Part shown: positions 1,570 to 13,626 of the stretch, one piece after another | Position numbering within the stretch: position 1 is the first letter of the stretch | Layout of the letters: each line of letters begins with the position of its first letter | Origin: Candidatus Margulisiibacteriota bacterium | GTDB lineage: Bacteria; Margulisbacteria; WOR-1; O2-12-FULL-45-9 | DNA: 14,775 bases | Assembly (NCBI GenBank): GCA_018814265.1 | Contig: JAHIZU010000106.1 | Coordinates: 1-14,775, forward strand | Direction of reading: 5' to 3' | The notes under the pieces: model-generated | What the model was told of the DNA's origin: nothing | The model's database searches: none | Seen by the model: the letters and a program-made list of their open reading frames with translations, nothing else | Made by a program: the position numbers and the translations under genes

Positions 1570-4410
1570 TTAGTGTCCTGATTCAGCCCAGTTTTTCCCG
1601 GTCCCCAAATCTACTTTGACCGGAACTTTTAAAGCGAGAGCCGCGACCATTTCTTCCTCAACAATCTTTTTGATTTTTTCAACTTCTTCTTTTGGGCATT
1701 CAAATACTAATTCATCGTGGACTTGAAGGAGCAGGCGAGATTGGTAGTCAGTAGCCTGTAGGCTGTTAAATATTTTGACCATGGCAACTTTGATCATGTC
1801 CGCCGCGGTCCCCTGGACTGGCGTGTTGATCGCGGTTCGCTCGGCAAATGAACGCAAACCATGGTTAGGGTTGTTTATGTCAGGCAGCGGCCTCTTCCTG
1901 CCCAGCATGGTCGTGACATAACCGTTTTCTTTAGCTTGTTTAATGGTCTTATCTATGAATTCTTTAACGCCTGTGTGTTTATTAAAATACTTGCTGATGT
2001 ACTCGGCTGCTTCTGTCCTTTTGATCTTTAATTGTTTGGCCAGGCCGAAATCGGAAATGCCATAGATAATGCCAAAATTAACGGTCTTGGCAGCGGCGCG
2101 GCTAATCCCAAGCTCGTCAGCAGTTAATTGATGTATGTCGTGGTTTTCCTGGAAAGCGGCCAGCAATACCGGATCCTGACTTAGATCCGCCAGGATGCGC
2201 AGTTCGATCTGTGAATAGTCGGCCGCGATCATGACCCAATCCTTTTTTCCTGGCACAAAGGCTGCGCGGATGCGCTTGCCCCAGTCGCCCTTGGCCGGGA
2301 TATTCTGCAGATTTGGCTTGGAACTGGACAGCCGACCCGTGGCGGTGATGGTTTGATTAAAAGAAGTATGTATGCGGCTGGTTTTTGTATGGACCAGGGT
2401 AGGGAGGACATCGACATAAGTGGATTTTAGTTTGGTCAGCTGACGATAGGCCATAAGTTTTTCCGCGATCTCAAATTTTTGCGCGGCCAGCTCTTCTAAT
2501 ACTTCCACGTTAGTGGAGATGCCGGTCTTGGTGCGCTTGATCACCGGCAGCTGCAGTTTTTCAAATAGGATCTTTGATAATTGTTTAGGGGAATTGAGGT
2601 TAAAGGTCTCTCCGGCAATGGCATAGATATCTTCTTCCACATCCTTGAGTGATTTTTCCATCTCCTTGGACATTTTGTTTAGGAGCGCTGCATCCAGGCT
2701 AATGCCATTGCTTTCCATCTCAACCAGCACGGCGATCAGCGGCATTTCAACCTCATAAAAAAGCTTGTCCAGCTTTTGGCCTTTAAGCGCCAGCTTGAAT
2801 ATTTCGTATAAGCCAAAAGTTACGTCAGCGTCCGAGGCCGCGTAATCAATGGCTACCTCAATGGGCACCTCAGCAAAGTTCTCATATTCCGCGTCTTTGC
2901 CGATCAATTCTACTAATTTGATCATTTCCCGGCCCAAAAATTGTTTACCCAGTGTTTTTAAGGCGTATTTGCCGGAAATCGGATCAAGCAGGTAAGCTGC
3001 CACCATGGTGTCAAAGAGCGGGCCGCTGACCTCAAGGCCGGCATTTTTTAGTATCTCGATATCATACTTAATATTATGGCCGATCTTTAATTTGTCCGAA
3101 CTGAATAAAGGTTGTAATCTGTCCAGCACAATCTTTAAAGGAACCTGAGACTGAACGTCTCGGTTCCTTTTGTCGGAACCGCGAAGCACCTCGACTTCGC
3201 TCGGTGCTGCCCTGAGCATCTCGACTCCGCTCGATGCTGCCCCGAGCTTGTCGAGGGGCTTGCCGAAGGGTTTATTCGCAGGTTCCGATTTGTGTCCGAT
3301 AGGTATATAGAAGGCAGACTTTGCTTCTGTGGAGATCGACAGACCGACGATCTTGGCAGTAAAGGGATCTAGGCTGGTGGTTTCCAGATCAAAAGCAAAC
3401 GCCTGGGCGGCTTGGAGTTTCTTGATCAATTTGGCCAGGGTTTCTTCGCTTTGCACGCAGGTAAAATCCAATTCAGAGATCTTGATCCTCTTTTTTTCTA
3501 TGATCTCTTCGGTTTGGTATCCCTCAACTCCCTGGCTGTATTTTTTGACCAGGCGGTCAAATTCCAGTTTAGTAAATAACGGCAGGACTTTTTGCCAATT
3601 GATGCCAGTGCGTTTGCATTTATCAAAATCAATTTCAATCGGAACATTGGTGACAATGGTTGCCAGCATCTTGCTTAGTTTTGCCAGCTCAATGTTCTTT
3701 TTAATGTTCTCTTTGAGCGCTTTTTTAGTTATACGGTCAACATTCTCCAGAATATTCTCTAAAGTCCCGAATTCTTTTAATAGCTGGGCCGCTGTTTTGT
3801 CGCCAACCTTGGGCACGCCGGGAATATTGTCTGAAGCATCGCCCTTTAACGCCTTAAAATCAATTATTTGACTGGCCTGAATGCCGTAACGGTCTGTGAC
3901 TTCCTTTTCTCCGTAAAGCATGGTATCGGTTATGCCTTTACGCGTGGTCAGCACCTTAATCTTCTTGCTTACCAGCTGCAGCGTATCAAGGTCGCCGGTT
4001 AATATCTCAACCGTGTACCCTTGTTGCTCTGCTTCTTTGGCCAGGGTGCCAATTACGTCGTCGGCTTCAAAACCAGCGATCTCATAGATCGGGATATCAA
4101 GGGCTTCCGCGATTTGTTTTACGTAAGGGAACTGTTCGCGCAGGCTGGGCGGGGCCTTGTCGCGAGTGGCTTTATATTCTTTATACTCTTTATGCCTGAA
4201 GGTTGGCTCAGGCCGGTCAAAAGAAATTGCTACAAAATCAGGTTTTTCGTCCAGAACTTTGAGCAGCATGGTGGTAAAACCGTAGATGGCATTGGTAGTA
4301 ATGCCGCTAGTGGTGCGCATGGTGTCGGGCAGGGCATAGAAAGCGCGGTAGGCGAGGGAGTTTCCGTCTATTAGGACGATCAGGGGGTCGTGTGTTTTAG
4401 GATTTTTCAC
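1570..4410 (-). CDS. polA: DNA polymerase I, with a repeat-encoded insertion
   Basis: Complete PolA of 946 residues with three domains. The 5' nuclease comes first (LIVLIDGNSLAYRAF, GFEADDVIGTLA, GDASDNIPGVPKVGDKTA). The 3'-5' exonuclease keeps all acidic residues (D341/E343 in FDLETTSL, D450 in GHNIKYD, D527 in YAASDAD), so proofreading should work. The polymerase has motif A D731 (ADYSQIELR), motif B (KTVNFGIIYG) and motif C H898-D899-E900 (VHDELVFE). The role is Okazaki fragment processing and repair synthesis. I chose the GTG at 4410: the frame stays open to 4566, but only inside tsf, and homology begins just after this GTG. The start overlaps the last 14 bases of tsf, which suggests translational coupling. 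Residues about 375-424, between two exonuclease core strands, are encoded by a nested palindromic repeat (3140-3286) and have no place in the family. Placement after rpsB-tsf is unusual. Confidence 0.95.
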   Translation of the reverse strand: MKNPKTHDPLIVLIDGNSLAYRAFYALPDTMRTTSGITTNAIYGFTTMLLKVLDEKPDFVAISFDRPEPTFRHKEYKEYKATRDKAPPSLREQFPYVKQIAEALDIPIYEIAGFEADDVIGTLAKEAEQQGYTVEILTGDLDTLQLVSKKIKVLTTRKGITDTMLYGEKEVTDRYGIQASQIIDFKALKGDASDNIPGVPKVGDKTAAQLLKEFGTLENILENVDRITKKALKENIKKNIELAKLSKMLATIVTNVPIEIDFDKCKRTGINWQKVLPLFTKLEFDRLVKKYSQGVEGYQTEEIIEKKRIKISELDFTCVQSEETLAKLIKKLQAAQAFAFDLETTSLDPFTAKIVGLSISTEAKSAFYIPIGHKSEPANKPFGKPLDKLGAASSGVEMLRAAPSEVEVLRGSDKRNRDVQSQVPLKIVLDRLQPLFSSDKLKIGHNIKYDIEILKNAGLEVSGPLFDTMVAAYLLDPISGKYALKTLGKQFLGREMIKLVELIGKDAEYENFAEVPIEVAIDYAASDADVTFGLYEIFKLALKGQKLDKLFYEVEMPLIAVLVEMESNGISLDAALLNKMSKEMEKSLKDVEEDIYAIAGETFNLNSPKQLSKILFEKLQLPVIKRTKTGISTNVEVLEELAAQKFEIAEKLMAYRQLTKLKSTYVDVLPTLVHTKTSRIHTSFNQTITATGRLSSSKPNLQNIPAKGDWGKRIRAAFVPGKKDWVMIAADYSQIELRILADLSQDPVLLAAFQENHDIHQLTADELGISRAAAKTVNFGIIYGISDFGLAKQLKIKRTEAAEYISKYFNKHTGVKEFIDKTIKQAKENGYVTTMLGRKRPLPDINNPNHGLRSFAERTAINTPVQGTAADMIKVAMVKIFNSLQATDYQSRLLLQVHDELVFECPKEEVEKIKKIVEEEMVAALALKVPVKVDLGTGKNWAESGH
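3140..3286. repeat. Double-hairpin palindromic repeat, copy inside polA
   Basis: This is the same element as at 9325-9391. The first 28 bases (3140-3167) and the two halves of the second hairpin (3175-3186 and 3271-3286) match that copy base for base. The outer ends GGAACCTG (3140-3147) and CAGGTTCC (3279-3286) are inverted. Without the 84-base nested insert the element is 63 nt, or 21 codons; with it, 147 nt, or 49 codons, so the polA frame is kept both ways. The linker between the hairpins is 7 nt here against 11 in the intergenic copy, and that difference makes the element a multiple of three. It resembles in concept the Rickettsia palindromic elements that insert into genes in frame, but I do not recognise the sequence as one. 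Confidence 0.85.
3187..3270. repeat. Nested 84-nt repeat inside the polA palindromic element
   Basis: This segment interrupts the loop side of the second hairpin of the surrounding element (after GCGAAG, before TTTATTCGC). It holds two 30-nt tandem units, each a hairpin with a 12-nt loop: AGCACC/GGTGCT (3185-3190 with 3203-3208) and AGCATC/GATGCT (3215-3220 with 3233-3238). The stems differ by a compensatory C-G to T-A pair. It is translated as two 10-residue repeats, AASSGVEMLR and AAPSEVEVLR. The remainder (CTTGTCGAGGGG and similar) resembles CTCGACTTCGCTCGG-type repeats that I recall from many environmental bacterial genomes. Confidence 0.75.
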
Positions 4411-4996
4411 CCAATTGATATCTGGTAAATCTTCTAATAACGATATTTTCGCCGATCTTAGCGACCAGGTCAGACAACAGGTCTTTAATGCTTGTTTTGG
4501 GATCCTTAATATAGGGCTGGTCCAGCAAGCAGATCTCAGAGTAAAACTTCTCAATTCGTCCTTCAACTATTTTTTGCCTGGCTTTTTCCGGTTTGCCTTC
4601 CTGCTTGGCCTGGGTCTCCAAGATATCCTTTTCATGAGCAATAATGCCTTCCGGCACATCCTCACGGGAAACATATTGCGGATTAGAAGCGGCGATCTGC
4701 ATGCTGATATCTTTAACAAAGGCCTGGAACTCAATGTTCTTGGCCACAAAATCAGTTTCGCTGTTCACTTCCACTAAAACACCGAGCTTGCCGCCGATAT
4801 GGATGTAAGAATCAACTAAGCCCTGGGCCGCGACCCGGCCGGCGCGTTTAGCTGCCGAGGCCAGACCTTTCTTCCGGAGGATATCAGAAGCCTTTTCCAT
4901 GTCACCATTGGCTTCGGCTAAAGCTTTTTTGCAATCCATCATGCCGCAGCTGGTTTTTTCTCTGAGTTTTTGAATTGATTCCACGCTGATAGTCAT
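4397..4996 (-). CDS. tsf: Elongation factor Ts
   Basis: EF-Ts, the guanine nucleotide exchange factor that recycles EF-Tu-GDP in the cytoplasm. The N-terminal UBA-like domain (residues 1-55, LREKTSCGMMDCKKAL) is followed by the core with the EF-Tu-contacting TDFVAKN motif at residues 81-87. At 199 residues it is the short form typical of cyanobacteria and Thermus rather than the roughly 280-residue proteobacterial form. The ATG at 4996 has a GGGGGAG Shine-Dalgarno (5001-5007) inside the 12-base gap after rpsB. The gene is the middle of the rpsB-tsf-polA operon, and its last codons contain the GTG start of polA. Confidence 0.97.
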   Translation of the reverse strand: MTISVESIQKLREKTSCGMMDCKKALAEANGDMEKASDILRKKGLASAAKRAGRVAAQGLVDSYIHIGGKLGVLVEVNSETDFVAKNIEFQAFVKDISMQIAASNPQYVSREDVPEGIIAHEKDILETQAKQEGKPEKARQKIVEGRIEKFYSEICLLDQPYIKDPKTSIKDLLSDLVAKIGENIVIRRFTRYQLGEKS

Positions 4997-5878: not shown

Positions 5879-5907
5879 ATCTTATCACAATAGCCTTAAA
5901 TTTGCAA
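5879..5907 (-). promoter_or_regulatory. Candidate sigma70-type promoter for rpsB-tsf-polA
   Basis: On the minus strand TTGCAA (-35, 5902-5907) is followed after 17 bases by TAAGAT (-10, 5879-5884), ahead of the rpsB Shine-Dalgarno. The -35 overlaps the last codons of the upstream barrel gene. Both boxes match consensus at 4 of 6 or better. Spacing is right, but the match is moderate, and read-through from the upstream genes is also possible. Confidence 0.35.
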
Positions 5908-6996
5908 TATCGGCGGCTGTTTCCGGCTAAAAAAGGTTTCCGGAAAGCCATCCAGCGGCCAGCCGCGTTCATCCAGAGACAGGGAGAAATAAGAGGTAGC
6001 ATTGTTGGCGAAGTTGCCATAGGGATGATAGGCATAGTGGAAGCCGATGCCGGCAAAATTCAGGCTAACACCGAAAGTAAAATTATTTTGAATGCCGTTG
6101 GGTTGCGGATCCTGGTCCATGCCGCCCCTGAGCGTCAGGAAATGATTGGGCGAGAACTCCAGGCCAAGGTGGGTGGTGGTTGGTTTGGCGCTCTGCAGGC
6201 TAAGGTCTGCGTCGGCCACGGCGGTCAGTTCCAGGGGCGAGAGAATAGCTGACTCGAACTCTTCACCCATCAGAAACATTCTGGTGCCGATCTTGATCGA
6301 CAGGGGTAAATCCTCTTCCTGGCCGCTGCGGTAGTGGATCTTGCCCGAACTTAAGAGGTTCTGGCCGACCAGGCCAAAAGAAAGCCAGCCCAAGCCTTTT
6401 TGGAGGAAACCAACATCAATGTTCATGCCTGAGCCGTAGGCGTCATTGAGTTCATTGCCGTCCTGAGAAAAGAACTTGAGATTAATGCCCAGGGAGACTT
6501 TTTCCGAAAGTTTCCTGCCGTAGGAAGCCAGCAGCACGCTGTTGCCGAAGTTTGATCTCTGCAGCAGGGTGCCGGCAGTGTCCCGGATATCGATGGCGGT
6601 GACCGCGGCCGCCGCATAGCCGATACCAATGGCGCTTCTTTCTCCCAGCGGATAAACCCCGCCTAAAACTGTGTACTGCACTTCTTCTAATAAACTGCCG
6701 GACATGCTGGTGAACTCAAAGGCGTCAATTTCGCCCAAGCCGGCCGGGTTATTAAAAATAGTGTCACTATTTTCCGCCACGGCAACGTAAGCCTTGCCCA
6801 TTCCTAAGGCCCGGGCGCCGACACCAATGGCCAACGGATCGAATGCCGTCTGTGCAAATGACCAAGATACAAGTAACAAGAACCAAGCAATAACCAAGAA
6901 ACAAATTCCAATAACCAATTTCGGAATTTTGAATTTTGAATTTGAAATTTGTTTGTATCTTGTATCTTGTTTCTTGGTTATTGGTTTATAACCCAT
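5896..6996 (-). CDS. PorV/PorQ-like (UPF0164-type) outer-membrane beta-barrel protein
   Basis: Predicted outer-membrane barrel of the PorV/PorQ/UPF0164 type. After the signal peptide comes the family hallmark GVGARALGMGKAYVAVAEN (residues 58-76), then NNPAGL, and alternating beta strands through to the C-terminal region. In FCB bacteria PorV is a type IX secretion shuttle that binds cargo C-terminal domains; other family members have unknown roles, so that function is not assigned here. The ATG at 6996 (preceded by AAGGGGAAG) overlaps the upstream gene by 19 bases. The signal peptide has a long polar n-region (1-26), a hydrophobic core (27-46) and likely cleavage after SFA (residue 48). Residues 4-46 are encoded by a palindromic repeat (6861-6987), so the export signal seems to come from repeat DNA. 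Internal TTG codons are alternative starts. Confidence 0.8.
   Translation of the reverse strand: MGYKPITKKQDTRYKQISNSKFKIPKLVIGICFLVIAWFLLLVSWSFAQTAFDPLAIGVGARALGMGKAYVAVAENSDTIFNNPAGLGEIDAFEFTSMSGSLLEEVQYTVLGGVYPLGERSAIGIGYAAAAVTAIDIRDTAGTLLQRSNFGNSVLLASYGRKLSEKVSLGINLKFFSQDGNELNDAYGSGMNIDVGFLQKGLGWLSFGLVGQNLLSSGKIHYRSGQEEDLPLSIKIGTRMFLMGEEFESAILSPLELTAVADADLSLQSAKPTTTHLGLEFSPNHFLTLRGGMDQDPQPNGIQNNFTFGVSLNFAGIGFHYAYHPYGNFANNATSYFSLSLDERGWPLDGFPETFFSRKQPPILQI
6861..6987. repeat. Long A/T-rich imperfect palindrome encoding a signal peptide
   Basis: The arms run 6861-6912 and 6925-6987. The core is a perfect 17-bp inverted repeat, CAATAACCAAGAAACAA at 6888-6904 against 6967-6983. The sequence is made of reiterated words (ACCAAG, ATACAAG; GAATTTT, GTATCTT) of the kind I recall between genes in many uncultured bacteria. 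It contains the stop codon of the upstream FlgD-like gene (6978-6980) and the signal peptide codons of the PorV-like gene. Confidence 0.75.
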
Positions 6997-9324: not shown

Positions 9325-9391
9325 GGAACCTGAGACTGAACGTCTCGGTTCCATAACGTTTAAGGAACCGCGAAGTTTATTCGCAGGTTCC
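9325..9391. repeat. Double-hairpin palindromic repeat, copy between proC and yggT
   Basis: Two 28-nt imperfect hairpins separated by 11 bases. Hairpin 1 (9325-9352) has stem GGAACC + GAGAC, loop TGAAC and one bulged T on the 5' side. Hairpin 2 (9364-9391) has stem GGAACC + GCGAA, loop GTTTA and one bulged A on the 3' side. The outer ends GGAACCTG/CAGGTTCC and the inner ends CGGTTCC/GGAACCG are also complementary, so a single end-to-end fold is an alternative. It starts 5 bases after the proC stop and ends 14 bases before yggT. A second copy sits inside polA (3140-3286). Confidence 0.85.
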
Positions 9392-9793: not shown

Positions 9794-10714
9794 ATGTCAG
9801 TTTTAATCGTTGGCTCCATTGGTCTAGATACAGTTGAAACGCCTTTTGGCAAGAAACAGGATATCCTGGGTGGTTCAGCTATCCATGCTTCGATCTCCTC
9901 CAGTTTCTACGCTGACACGGCCATCGTTGGCGTGGCTGGCAGCGATTTTCCCAAGGAGTATTTGGAGTTTTTAAGATCCAGGAACATTGATGTCGAGGGC
10001 ATCCAGATTTTACCGGGAGAGACTTTTCGCTGGTCAGGCTATTATGAATACGATATGAACCAGGCCCATACCAAGGATACCAAGCTAAATGTTTATACCC
10101 TGTTTGATCCCAAGATCCCTGATAAGCTCAAGGATGCTGAATTTGTTTTTCTGGCTAACCTTGACCCTGAGCTGCAGCTCAAGGTCCTTGATCAATTGAA
10201 AAAGCCAAAACTGGTGGCCATGGATACCATGAATTTTTGGATCGAAAATAAGCGGGAGGCTTTGCACGAAGTGATCAAGCGGGTGGATGTTGTTTTAATG
10301 AACGATGGCGAGGCCCGCCAATTTATGGAAACCCCGAATATTCCGATCGCTGCTGCGCGTCTCCTGAAACTGGGCGCGAAATCCGTGATCATTAAAAAAG
10401 GCTAACACGGAGCCTTGCTGTTCTCAGCTGACGGCCATTTTTCCGCGCCGTCGTACCCGCAGGATATGCTGCGCGATCCCACCGGGGCGGGTGACTCGTT
10501 TGCCGGCGGCTTTATCGGCCATTTGGCCAAAACAGATGATCTGTCCGAGGGCAATATCCGTCGGGCGATCATTGTTGGCTCGGTCATGGCTTCTTACAAT
10601 GTCGAGGATTTCAGCCTTGACCGGATGAAACGGCTGACACCGAAGGAGATCTTTGGACGCTTTGAAGAATTTCGGCGCTTTTCCGAATTCGAAGCGATAG
10701 CTGCGCCGCATTAA
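9794..10714 (+). pseudogene. PfkB-family sugar kinase interrupted by an in-frame TAA
   Basis: PfkB/ribokinase-fold kinase of about 305 residues, broken by one stop codon. The first part (9794-10405, 203 residues) has the family start VLIVGSIGLDTVETPFG, the sugar-site GGSAIHASISSS, FRWSGYYEYD, AMDTMNFWIENKREAL and LMNDGEARQF. The frame stops at TAA (10403-10405) in KKG*HGALLF, where related kinases have KKGEHGALL or similar, so one G-to-T change of GAA explains it. Translation continues in the same frame to 10714 with the catalytic DPTGAGDSFAGGF. Without that part the product cannot be an active kinase. Real mutation, sequencing error and strain variation cannot be separated here. A TTG at 10415 after ACGGAG could allow reinitiation. 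The start ATG has AGGAGG at 9783-9788. The aldolase follows after 18 bases. Confidence 0.8.
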
Positions 10715-10732: not shown

Positions 10733-11452
10733 ATGATTAAGGAGTTTCAAAGGATCGGTAAGTTTTTGTTTCAAGAAGGATTAATTGATTCGCATGGCGG
10801 TAATATGAGCCTGTTGGAGGGAGATCGGATCTTCATCACCCGCCGGGATTCCATGCTGGGGGACCTTAGGGAAAGCGATATTGTTGAAGTTGGTCTGGAG
10901 ACTGGGCCGGAAGACGGGCAGGCCTCGCGGGAATTGCCGACCCATCGGGCTATTTACAAGCTGGGCAAAGCCAAGGCCATAGTCCACGCGCATTCCGCGA
11001 ATGCTATTGCGCTGTCTATTACCGACAATAAGATCGTGCCGCAGGATGCCGAAGGCCTGTACTTTTATAAGGCCGCGCCGATCGTTCGGGTGCGTGACGG
11101 TATTGGTTCGGAAGAGACCGTTCGCCTGCTGCCGAATTTTTTGGGCGGCGAGAATGTGATTGCCGTGGTCAAGAGCCACGGTAGTTTTGCTGTTGGCAAT
11201 AGTTTGGCCGAGGCCTACAAGTACACTTCATCCTTAGAAAATTCCTGCAAGATCATTGTGGCCATAAGATCTTCTGGCGGTAGAGGACCAGGTTCAGGAG
11301 GAGGAAGAGTACCAGGAGTAGGGGGGAGAGACATAGGACAAGGACGGGGCCCGGTAGGCGGGGGACATGGACGAAGAGACAAGGGTGGATATAAGTCAGC
11401 CATTCCGCCCGGCATCGGAGTTATGGACAGAAGCCGGCGCCACAAACGATGA
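10733..11452 (+). CDS. Class II aldolase/adducin-family protein with Gly/Arg-rich tail
   Basis: Zinc-dependent class II (fuculose-type) aldolase fold. The expected metal ligands are H85 and H87 (VHAHSANAIA) and H149 (VKSHGSFAVG), and E67 (ASRELPTHR) is the likely catalytic glutamate. SHGGNMS (20-26) and ITRRDSMLGDL (35-45) form the phosphate-binding side. The substrate is unknown; a sugar phosphate made by the neighbouring PfkB kinase is a reasonable guess, as in aldolase/kinase pairs for deoxysugar disposal. The fold ends near residue 180. Residues 182-239 are low complexity, rich in Gly, Arg and Pro, with RGG-like repeats, and finish SRRHKR. The start ATG is well supported by AGGAGG at 10721-10726. 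The stop TGA overlaps the ATG of rel (ATGA), so rel translation probably depends on this gene. Confidence 0.85.
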   Translation: MIKEFQRIGKFLFQEGLIDSHGGNMSLLEGDRIFITRRDSMLGDLRESDIVEVGLETGPEDGQASRELPTHRAIYKLGKAKAIVHAHSANAIALSITDNKIVPQDAEGLYFYKAAPIVRVRDGIGSEETVRLLPNFLGGENVIAVVKSHGSFAVGNSLAEAYKYTSSLENSCKIIVAIRSSGGRGPGSGGGRVPGVGGRDIGQGRGPVGGGHGRRDKGGYKSAIPPGIGVMDRSRRHKR

Positions 11453-13410
11453 CAGAGTTTGAAGCCTTATTATCCGGATTAAAAAGTTATAATCCCCAGG
11501 CGGATCTTGGGGTGGTCAGGAAGGCGTATGCTTTTGCCGACCACGCCCATCGGGAACATAAGAGACTTTCCGGCGAACCCTATATTACCCATCCTTTGGC
11601 AGTGGCATCGATCCTGGTGGAGCTCGAGCAGGACCCTTTGACCATTGCCGCGGCGCTGCTGCATGATGTGGTTGAGGATGCTGAGGTTAGCCGCGAGGAC
11701 CTGACTAAAGAATTCGGGGCTGAAGTGGCCAAGCTGGTTGAGGGTGTTACAAAATTGAGCCAGCTGACCTTTACCAGCCGCGAAGTCCGCCAGGCTGAAA
11801 ATTTCCGCAAAATGTTCGTGGCCATGGGTGAAGATTTTCGGATCATTGTTATCAAGTTATCGGACCGCCTGCACAATATGCGCACCTTAAAATACCTGCC
11901 CCCGCCCAAACAAAAGGATACTGCTTTAGAAACCCGCGAGATCTTTGCTCCTTTAGCCCATCGCTTAGGCATGTGGCGCTTGAAGTGGGAGCTGGAGGAC
12001 CTGGCGTTTTCTTTTTTAGAGCCGGACAAGTACGAGGAGGTCAAGGGCTGGGTGACGGAAAGCCGCGGCGCGCGCGAAAGATATATCAAGAGTTTTATTG
12101 AAGAGTCCACGGCCATGCTGAAAAAGGTTGGCGTTGATGGCCATAGCTACGGCCGGCCCAAACATTTCTACAGCATTTACCACAAGATGGTCGATCAGAA
12201 TTTAGACTTTGATGAGATCTATGATCTGACAGCTGTCCGGATCGTTGTTGACACCATCAAAGAGTGCTATGCCGTGCTGGGTCTGGTCCACGCGGCCTGG
12301 AAGCCGATCCCAGGGAGGTTCCGCGATTATATTGCCATGCCCAAATCAAATGGTTATCAATCCTTGCACACCACAGTCATCGGGCCGTCCGGCAAACCAG
12401 TGGAGATCCAGATCCGGACCAAGGAAATGCACCGGATAGCGGAATATGGCATTGCTGCCCACTGGCGCTACAAAGAAAAAGATACTGATAAGGGGCTGGA
12501 CCAGAAAATGTCCTGGTTTCGGCAAATGCTGGAATGGCAGGATGAGCTGAAGGATGCCAAGGATTTTATGGAAAGCTTAAAGATCGATCTTTTTGTTGAT
12601 GAAGTTTTTGTTTTTACGCCCAAGGGTGATGTTTTTGGCCTGCCGATCGGCGCGACGCCGGTTGATTTCGCCTATCATGTGCATACCGAGGTTGGGCATC
12701 GCACAGTTGGTGCGCGGGTCAACGGCCGGATCGTGCCTTTGGATTTTAAATTGCGCCACGGCGACATTGTTGAGATGCTGACCGGGAAAAAAGATAATCC
12801 CAGCCGGGATTGGGTGAGGTTTGTTAAGACCGCGGGAGCGCGGGTTAAGGTCAATAACTGGTTTAAGAAGCAGCGCGGCGTCAAAAAGGAAGAAGCTGCG
12901 CAGGCCATTGTGGCCAGGGAAGACGAGCCGCAGGTCAAGCCATTGCTCGTGCCGCGGCCCAGGGTTAAAGCCAAGTCAGCGGTCACGGTTTCCGGCCTGG
13001 AGAACGTCCTGGTCCGTTTTTCCCGCTGCTGCCGGCCGATCCCCGGTGAGGAGATCATTGGATTTGTAACTCGGGGCAAAGGCATTACTGTTCATCGCCA
13101 TGATTGTCCCAATGTGATAAGCCAGGATATCCCAAAGGAGCGAGTTATCCGGGTAGATTGGAATCCCAAAAGAGAGATCGTGTTTCCAGTGGAAGTAGAG
13201 GTTGAGGCTTTTGATCGAGTAGGGGTGCTCAAGGATATTCTGGGCCAGATCTCGGAGATAAAGACCAATGTTTCAGCTGCCAAGATCTCCACCAAACGCG
13301 GCAGTTCCGCGTTTTTGCGCCTAACGGTTGATGTAAAAGATAAGCAGCATCTTGAACAGGTTATCAAAGCCATCCGCAGTTTAAAAGATGTCTATGATGT
13401 GCATAGGTAG
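11449..13410 (+). CDS. rel: Bifunctional (p)ppGpp synthetase/hydrolase, Rel type, shortened linker
   Basis: RelA/SpoT enzyme that makes and degrades the alarmone (p)ppGpp in the stringent response. The HD hydrolase is intact (H48, H72-D73 in HDVVED, D139 in SDRLHNMRT). The synthetase is intact too (GRPKHFYS 235-242, D259, R264, Y303 in GYQSLHTT, E319 in EIQIRTKEMH). TGS follows (about 383-445), then the cysteine-rich domain (C527, C528, H549, C553) and ACT (about 580-650). It has 653 residues, while related full-length enzymes have about 720-750. The missing part is the helical domain between TGS and the cysteine-rich domain, reduced here to roughly 35 basic residues. It starts at the ATG overlapping the aldolase stop and has no Shine-Dalgarno, so coupling is expected. 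It is a paralogue of the degenerate copy at the window's left end. Confidence 0.96.
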   Translation: MTEFEALLSGLKSYNPQADLGVVRKAYAFADHAHREHKRLSGEPYITHPLAVASILVELEQDPLTIAAALLHDVVEDAEVSREDLTKEFGAEVAKLVEGVTKLSQLTFTSREVRQAENFRKMFVAMGEDFRIIVIKLSDRLHNMRTLKYLPPPKQKDTALETREIFAPLAHRLGMWRLKWELEDLAFSFLEPDKYEEVKGWVTESRGARERYIKSFIEESTAMLKKVGVDGHSYGRPKHFYSIYHKMVDQNLDFDEIYDLTAVRIVVDTIKECYAVLGLVHAAWKPIPGRFRDYIAMPKSNGYQSLHTTVIGPSGKPVEIQIRTKEMHRIAEYGIAAHWRYKEKDTDKGLDQKMSWFRQMLEWQDELKDAKDFMESLKIDLFVDEVFVFTPKGDVFGLPIGATPVDFAYHVHTEVGHRTVGARVNGRIVPLDFKLRHGDIVEMLTGKKDNPSRDWVRFVKTAGARVKVNNWFKKQRGVKKEEAAQAIVAREDEPQVKPLLVPRPRVKAKSAVTVSGLENVLVRFSRCCRPIPGEEIIGFVTRGKGITVHRHDCPNVISQDIPKERVIRVDWNPKREIVFPVEVEVEAFDRVGVLKDILGQISEIKTNVSAAKISTKRGSSAFLRLTVDVKDKQHLEQVIKAIRSLKDVYDVHR

Positions 13411-13460
13411 GGAGCTACTTCTTATTTCTTGCTTTTTTTCATAAAGGGATTTTTAAGACT

Positions 13461-13575
13461 ATCAGATGACCAGATAATCAGAACTGGAATATCAGAGTAT
13501 TGGAGAATCAGATCTTTCTGGTATTCTGGTAATCTGATCCTCCAGCTCCGGTCTTCTGATTTTCTGGTACTCTGA
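13461..13575. repeat. Long imperfect palindrome after rel
   Basis: The left arm (about 13461-13513) is built of words such as ATCAGA, CCAGAT and GAATATCAGA. The right arm (about 13517-13575) is its imperfect reverse complement (TCTGGTATTCTGG, AATCTGATCC, GGTACTCTGA). The two arms could fold into a hairpin of more than 50 pairs with interruptions around a very short turn near TTTC. It lies 50 bases after the rel stop and may serve as a barrier to read-through, but no clear T-run follows directly. Confidence 0.65.
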
Positions 13576-13626
13576 CACCACTGTCAATGGAGTAGGGGAT
13601 GCGCTTTTTTACTGAAATTACCCAGA

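Follow-up and report, generated by a model that had tools for sequence, protein, structure and literature searches.

A palindromic insert in frame in DNA polymerase I of a Margulisbacteria genome, probably a non-autonomous IS200/IS605-like hairpin pair

What kind of DNA lies in frame in the exonuclease domain of a DNA polymerase I gene, how did it arrive there, and how does the protein bear it? The question is raised by the window, a stretch of 14,775 nt which constitutes contig C285 of the draft genome G000 (1,484,015 bases in 301 contigs, 80.5% complete). The polA gene lies on the reverse strand, in a 998-codon open frame (1573–4566) with a likely ATG start at 4410 (946 aa). It is identified by Pfam and NCBIfam matches, and its product scores 1107 bits against the NCBIfam DNA polymerase I cut-off of 720. 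Six of the 7 PolA records at 66–74% identity are named Saganbacteria, WOR-1 or Margulisiibacteriota.

The polA insert and its intergenic counterpart

The insert (3140–3286) measures 147 nt, or 49 codons, and is made by two inverted hairpins, hereafter A units. The first (3140–3167, forward strand) has the modular structure GGAACC-T-GAGAC-TGAAC-GTCTC-GGTTCC, and is joined by a 7-nt linker (3168–3174) to the second (3175–3286, reverse strand). The loop of the latter is broken by a guest sequence, B (3186–3269, reverse strand; 84 nt, 28 codons), located between the loop TAAAC and the 3' stem. Without the guest, the element measures 63 nt, exactly 21 codons. An earlier note, made from the letters of the window, had equated the polA segment with an intergenic element at 9325–9391, and the two are indeed the same hairpin pair, the latter free of a guest. 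The intergenic element includes a forward unit (9325–9352) identical to the first polA unit at 28/28 nt, a linker of 11 nt (9353–9363), 4 nt longer than in polA, and an uninterrupted reverse unit (9364–9391) equal to the second polA hairpin once the nested block is removed. Searching the 1.48-Mb genome with the 28-nt left block returned 22 matches at up to 3 mismatches, and none with the reversed control, which excludes chance.

An AlphaFold2 model of the window PolA, built from 50 aligned PolAs, has a mean pLDDT of 86.5 and puts the insert in one predicted disordered loop. Residues 377–418 of 946 have pLDDT values below 50 and no secondary structure, and are flanked by a strand (365–370) and a helix (425–436); ten-residue means around the insert range from 82 to 97. 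D341, E343, D450, Y523 and D527, presumed by analogy with the Klenow fragment to serve the exonuclease, do not vary across the 50-PolA alignment. The presumed catalytic residues are kept, as the earlier note had held. The protein carrying the insert is presumably functional as a polymerase. The hairpins formed in the mRNA might suggest that the insert is removed or skipped (by splicing or ribosome bypass), yielding a protein devoid of it. This is highly improbable, as coding copies keep the frame open through the insert, which removal would not need.

Elsewhere in the window, a sugar-kinase-like gene (9794–10714, named by eye) is apparently split by an in-frame stop into frames lying end to end (9794–10405 and 10415–10714). 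Two RelA/SpoT-like proteins, also named by eye, are encoded at 3–1565, running off the contig end, and at 11449–13410. An inverted repeat of the AACCAAGAAAC type resides at 6885–6986, early in the gene spanning 5896–6996, and short TCTGG/CCAGA-rich repeats were noted by eye in the intergenic DNA at 13446–13590.

A hairpin family and its candidate transposase

A units were searched as GRAACC-T-N5-TRAAC-N5-GGTTYC, mismatches being counted at fixed letters. The source genome contains 73 matches (36 exact, 11 with one and 26 with two mismatches); 5 more are found at up to 3 mismatches, to a total of 78, as against 10 in the reversed control. In the majority of the 73 matches the stems stay complementary despite differing letters. 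Variants are found both of the inner (GAGAC/GTCTC, GCGAC/GTCGC, GCGAA/TTCGC) and the outer stems (GGAACC/GGTTCC, GAAACC/GGTTTC, GGAGCC/GGCTCC). Scanning for this structure in the loci that were fetched revealed at least 83 A units in the source genome, a lower bound because B-carrying units on contigs C44 and C112 fell outside the scan. Merged at 120 nt, the units make up 51 elements: 30 (+,-) pairs, 19 singles, one (-,+) and one (-,-) pair. Inner stems are unequal in all 30 (+,-) pairs; reshuffling gave a mean of 7.3 equal pairs, and never reached zero in 2000 trials. The unpaired T at the bulge is found in 122 of 146 A units, a biased proportion, since most loci had been fetched with patterns containing this T. 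The loop reads TGAAC or TAAAC in 139/146, in a scan that required a TRAA loop start and paired stems.

In the DNA flanking the hairpins no conserved tetranucleotide was detected 5' of them (less than 0.4 bit at all of the 12 positions scored per side), and neither a GTAG nor a CGTC tag. Flank pairing and duplication were analyzed in 81 units, 2 of the 83 having flanks too short. The outer flank pairs with the inner one over at least 4 bp in 21/81 units, against 1.3 expected from reshuffled flanks, which rules out random flanks; the letters of the pairing residues vary from copy to copy. This complementarity may reflect insertion at the centre of small palindromes, or fold-back copying of a flank. 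Dinucleotide direct repeats mark 26/81 units, but many of them are self-complementary AT..AT, and target duplication was not taken to be a rule: flanks feature no general target-site duplication, but TC..TC (9) and AT..AT (15/81) motifs recur. No pair of empty and filled sites with a clean A unit arrival was found at the nucleotide level.

Unit A was detected, at up to one mismatch, in 27 of the 57 genomes searched, the source genome included, with reversed controls amounting to 3 in total. All carriers belong to the same class (27/31 genomes), class being the kinship label attached to the searched genomes; none of the 26 genomes from other classes of the phylum has the repeat. Copies range from 1 to 67 per genome, the source genome having 67. 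A few single-hit genomes look like chance, as G022, where the stems of the single match are unpaired. An assembly or binning artefact might be suspected in a draft of 301 contigs, and is given a negligible probability in view of this distribution, of the like insert found in another PolA record (P0002), and of the recurrence of the protein on 2 contigs. These two, the longer of which measures 15,686 bases, both list a protein of 946 aa, taken as the window's own PolA since it showed no difference in the 231 residues aligned; the contigs may or may not be independent, but their agreement makes assembly error less likely.

Y1_Tnp matches, 53 in number, were found in 38 genomes, and 31 with fetched loci (2 from the source genome, 29 from relatives) were scanned for A units. 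At 5 loci (L103, L220, L226, L242, L244) A units lie close on both sides of the gene, and at four of them, L220 being the exception, the nearest ones are mutually inverted. At 5 more (L227, L228, L230, L240, L245) a unit lies on one side, within about 200 nt; at the other 21 none was found within this distance. Seven of the 10 A-flanked proteins were scored against transposase profiles, and all 7 lie above the IS200/IS605 cut-off (NF033573, 55 bits) and below that of RAYTs, the REP-associated tyrosine transposases (80). A PDB comparison of one A-flanked protein gave matches to transposases of known structure, including that of ISHp608. IS608 TnpA is reported to accommodate an unpaired T in a pocket and to touch a loop T (PMC8266576); unit A retains both the unpaired T and the loop. 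Since A units stand beside some IS200/IS605-type transposase genes, unit A is probably a non-autonomous IS200/IS605-like derivative. At one locus of the source genome (L169 2206–2700, contig C211), the frame of an IS200-type tnpA crosses a B-carrying A unit, and terminates within the next A unit.

It could be argued that the units are REPs, spread by a RAYT. Their size, inverted arrangement and unequal partners resemble those of the REP dimers described by Di Nocera et al. (2013, PMC3733652), and the source genome encodes a RAYT-type protein on contig C151, above the RAYT and below the IS200/IS605 cut-off. Yet no A unit lies within about 1.5 kb of this gene (in a 3.3-kb locus), the tested A-flanked proteins all score as IS200/IS605, and the flanks are devoid of either REP tag; a REP origin is therefore disfavoured, and we deem it unlikely.

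We thus read the polA insert, with a probability of about 0.75, as a non-autonomous copy of an IS200/IS605-like element of this Margulisbacteria class, probably of Saganbacteria/WOR-1. Full copies are arranged as hairpin(+)-tnpA-hairpin(-), and dispersed copies as two inverted 28-nt hairpins separated by a short linker, or as a single one. The HUH transposase TnpA, of the single-tyrosine type, would recognize the element folded in single-stranded form through the unpaired T and the TRAAC loop, cut and rejoin it on single-stranded DNA, and so move A units, insertion presumably taking place on single strands. Copies of 3n length falling in a surface loop or an interdomain linker would add some 10–49 tolerated residues and survive; the first polA unit is free of stops in 5/6 reading frames, which fits such survival. 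Repeat B, also of 3n length, would have entered the loop of the second polA hairpin, probably later. The hairpin pair is probably selfish DNA. Several observations weigh against this reading, the absence of an empty/filled pair with a clean A unit arrival among them. IS200/IS605 ends, like REPs, have a tetranucleotide 5' of the hairpin (PMC6006769), and neither such a guide nor a fixed target emerged from the flanks of A units; flank complementarity is not expected of IS200/IS605 insertion; and, besides the 21 Y1_Tnp loci lacking a close unit, the unit-rich genomes G028 (46 units), G013 (15) and G014 (12) have no Y1_Tnp match.

In-frame copies, nested guests and the PolA loop

Fourteen of the 51 elements of the source genome reside in open frames extending for at least 40 codons on each side. 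In 11, the host gene is supported by Pfam or NCBIfam domains flanking or spanning the insert: polA, metH, gltB, ileS, lnt, leuS, miaA, moeA, and genes for a family-2 glycosyltransferase, an FAD (DAO) oxidoreductase and a FlgD-Ig-like protein. The insert falls between Pfam domains in metH, gltB, ileS, lnt and leuS. The products of metH, gltB, ileS and leuS, cut by contig or locus ends, are under the NCBIfam whole-protein cut-off, as is that of moeA; Pfam domains pass in all five. No domain support was found for the other three elements (C221, C68, one on C15). Relatives yielded 62 elements, 21 of which reside in frames of at least 60 codons on each side, counted by open frame alone. Elements with matching linkers occupy the same site across genera in leuS, bioF and the DAO gene. 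For bioF, a gene so identified by eye, one and the same in-frame A pair with a shared linker was seen at L174, L248 and L253, which belong to genomes from two families. In each of 7 comparisons the identity of the element (91–98%) exceeded that of both its flanks (60–91%), but the loci had been chosen for pattern match, and a higher conservation of the elements was not retained as a result; in this comparison only the matching linkers are free of locus-choice bias.

Each of the 16 copies of B found is lodged in an A unit, where the TRAAC loop meets the 3' stem; in one of them a contig end truncates an arm. The search relied on a 29-nt core with up to 3 mismatches (control 0), and would let more distant copies escape; a B-like piece at L030 is outside A. 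B copies of 42 and 84 nt keep the frame, and the last 42 nt of the polA guest match the common 42-nt B at 36/42. Other guests were found in this genome. A guest of 24 nt resides at the same junction on contig C169, and one of 20 nt at the opposite loop edge on C130; the latter breaks frame length, and lies outside domain-supported genes. Guests of the type CCTGCCTGCCGGCAGGCA... are found at loop edges in C130, G021 and G025, and in the DAO gene of G025 another palindrome occupies the matching place. The leuS pair and its linker recur in G009, where B is missing; G000 is exactly 42 nt longer, with no duplication. On grounds of parsimony, the polA guest probably arrived after the A pair; for leuS, loss of B in G009 is an alternative. 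P0002, which has the same pair and no guest, was discarded as the ancestral state of the window polA insert, since P0001 and P0002 are not sisters in the trees, and the guest question is for this reason argued from leuS only.

The site of the insert was examined in PolA proteins of relatives. In 26 of 30 same-class relatives the alignment with the window PolA breaks at the place of the insert, in two matches ending at 423–429 and resuming at 472–484 of the 998-aa frame; the match is continuous in G021, partial in G003 and G018, and missing in G028. None of 20 aligned PolA proteins has the A pair, L068 stopping short of the site, and it is not the case that relatives all carry an unrelated conserved domain there. 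The loop was surveyed by eye, at the peptide level, in the best 120 of 1347 PolA homologs. Among these, 11, the window PolA included, have A-like pieces, some of them short (P0026, P0029–P0031, P0080), and 9 a different palindrome (VGTGLVPV / QPQGLSLH / GRPQGPPLH). At the DNA level the loop was confirmed in the window, in G021, which has an A pair with a different guest, and in G015, which has the second palindrome. Taken with the census and the structure model, the absence from most relatives supports the proposal of the earlier note that a palindromic repeat, dispersed and of mobile type, has inserted into an exonuclease-domain loop without breaking the frame. In the same loop, a B-like palindrome stands alone in a Margulisiibacteriota MAG (L030 3209–3295), and an unrelated one (GGCGAGGCATCCTGCCTCGCC) in a Buchananbacteria MAG (L051 6062–6181). 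Comparing by eye hairpin ends with the polA codons present at the site in relatives gave no convincing microhomology.

Alternatively, polA may have received the A pair in a single event early in the history of the class, most lineages having since lost it by precise excision. Such a history is compatible with an IS200/IS605 mechanism, as single-strand transposition permits excision, and competes with repeated insertion at one site. The window PolA, P0002 and P0095 share site, orientation and frame of the pair at the peptide level, and the window and G021 share the 7-nt linker at the DNA level. P0001 and P0002 are rejected as one clade (p-AU 1.3e-35, 26 rows), and elements with matching linkers are common to genera in the three genes mentioned above. 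On a FastTree phylogeny of 109 of the 120 PolAs (P0110–P0120 dropped, loop removed), the A label requires 8 changes, but so does the unrelated palindrome in the same loop, and independent arrivals at this loop hence do happen; no excision footprint was observed. An ancient insert is a serious contender, to which we give somewhat less than even odds.

A tentative and rather doubtful idea is that hairpins home to hairpins, new palindromes entering, or rewriting, the tips of existing ones. If true, it would account for B at one junction in all 16 copies found and for other guests at loop edges, for stems extending into copy-specific flanks and arms changing in step, and for elements recurring at one site across genera in leuS, bioF, the DAO gene and polA. 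REP dimers inside palindromes, reported in PMC3733652, provide a partial precedent.

Known systems and significance

Unit A resembles IS200/IS605 elements, such as ISHp608, in having at some copies a small HUH-Y1 TnpA gene, and in its end hairpins, where the unpaired T and the loop bases are kept and the stems vary in step. In contrast to IS200/IS605 ends, A hairpins revealed no guide tetranucleotide or fixed target, are mutually inverted with nothing conserved outside, and occur also as single units. Likeness to REPs, BIMEs, REPINs and TIR-associated repeats, as described in PMC3733652, is found in the short hairpins and unequal inverted dimers, to which the (+,-) pairs (30/51 elements) correspond. 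According to the same source, some REP dimers reside inside palindromes, and REPs lie in frame in genes of many species, DNA polymerase I among them. Unit A differs in lacking the GTAG/CGTC tag, and the genes found at the units are IS200-type, not RAYT-type. Coding palindromes are known from Rickettsia (PMC10969869 and PMC3733652). The parallel with these elements, drawn in the earlier note, holds as an analogy: both are palindromes in frame in protein genes, here 11 supported genes at the DNA level, the likeness being drawn from published descriptions. The elements described here differ in being 28-nt hairpin pairs with a transposase association.

The literature searched returned nothing joining Saganbacteria with a palindromic repeat, PMC3733652 being the closest paper. 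As far as the searches show, novelty lies in the bacterial class, in the link of coding hairpins to IS200/IS605-type genes, in a guest whose place within the loop is fixed, and in a PolA loop that has been used repeatedly. In a non-rickettsial lineage, mobile hairpins have repeatedly turned into coding sequence, and some copies have a candidate enzyme next to them. With orthologous elements available in leuS, bioF and the DAO gene, and a PolA loop entered also by unrelated palindromes, one may ask whether coding palindromes are neutral passengers, how long they persist, and by what route a second repeat reaches the loop of an earlier one.
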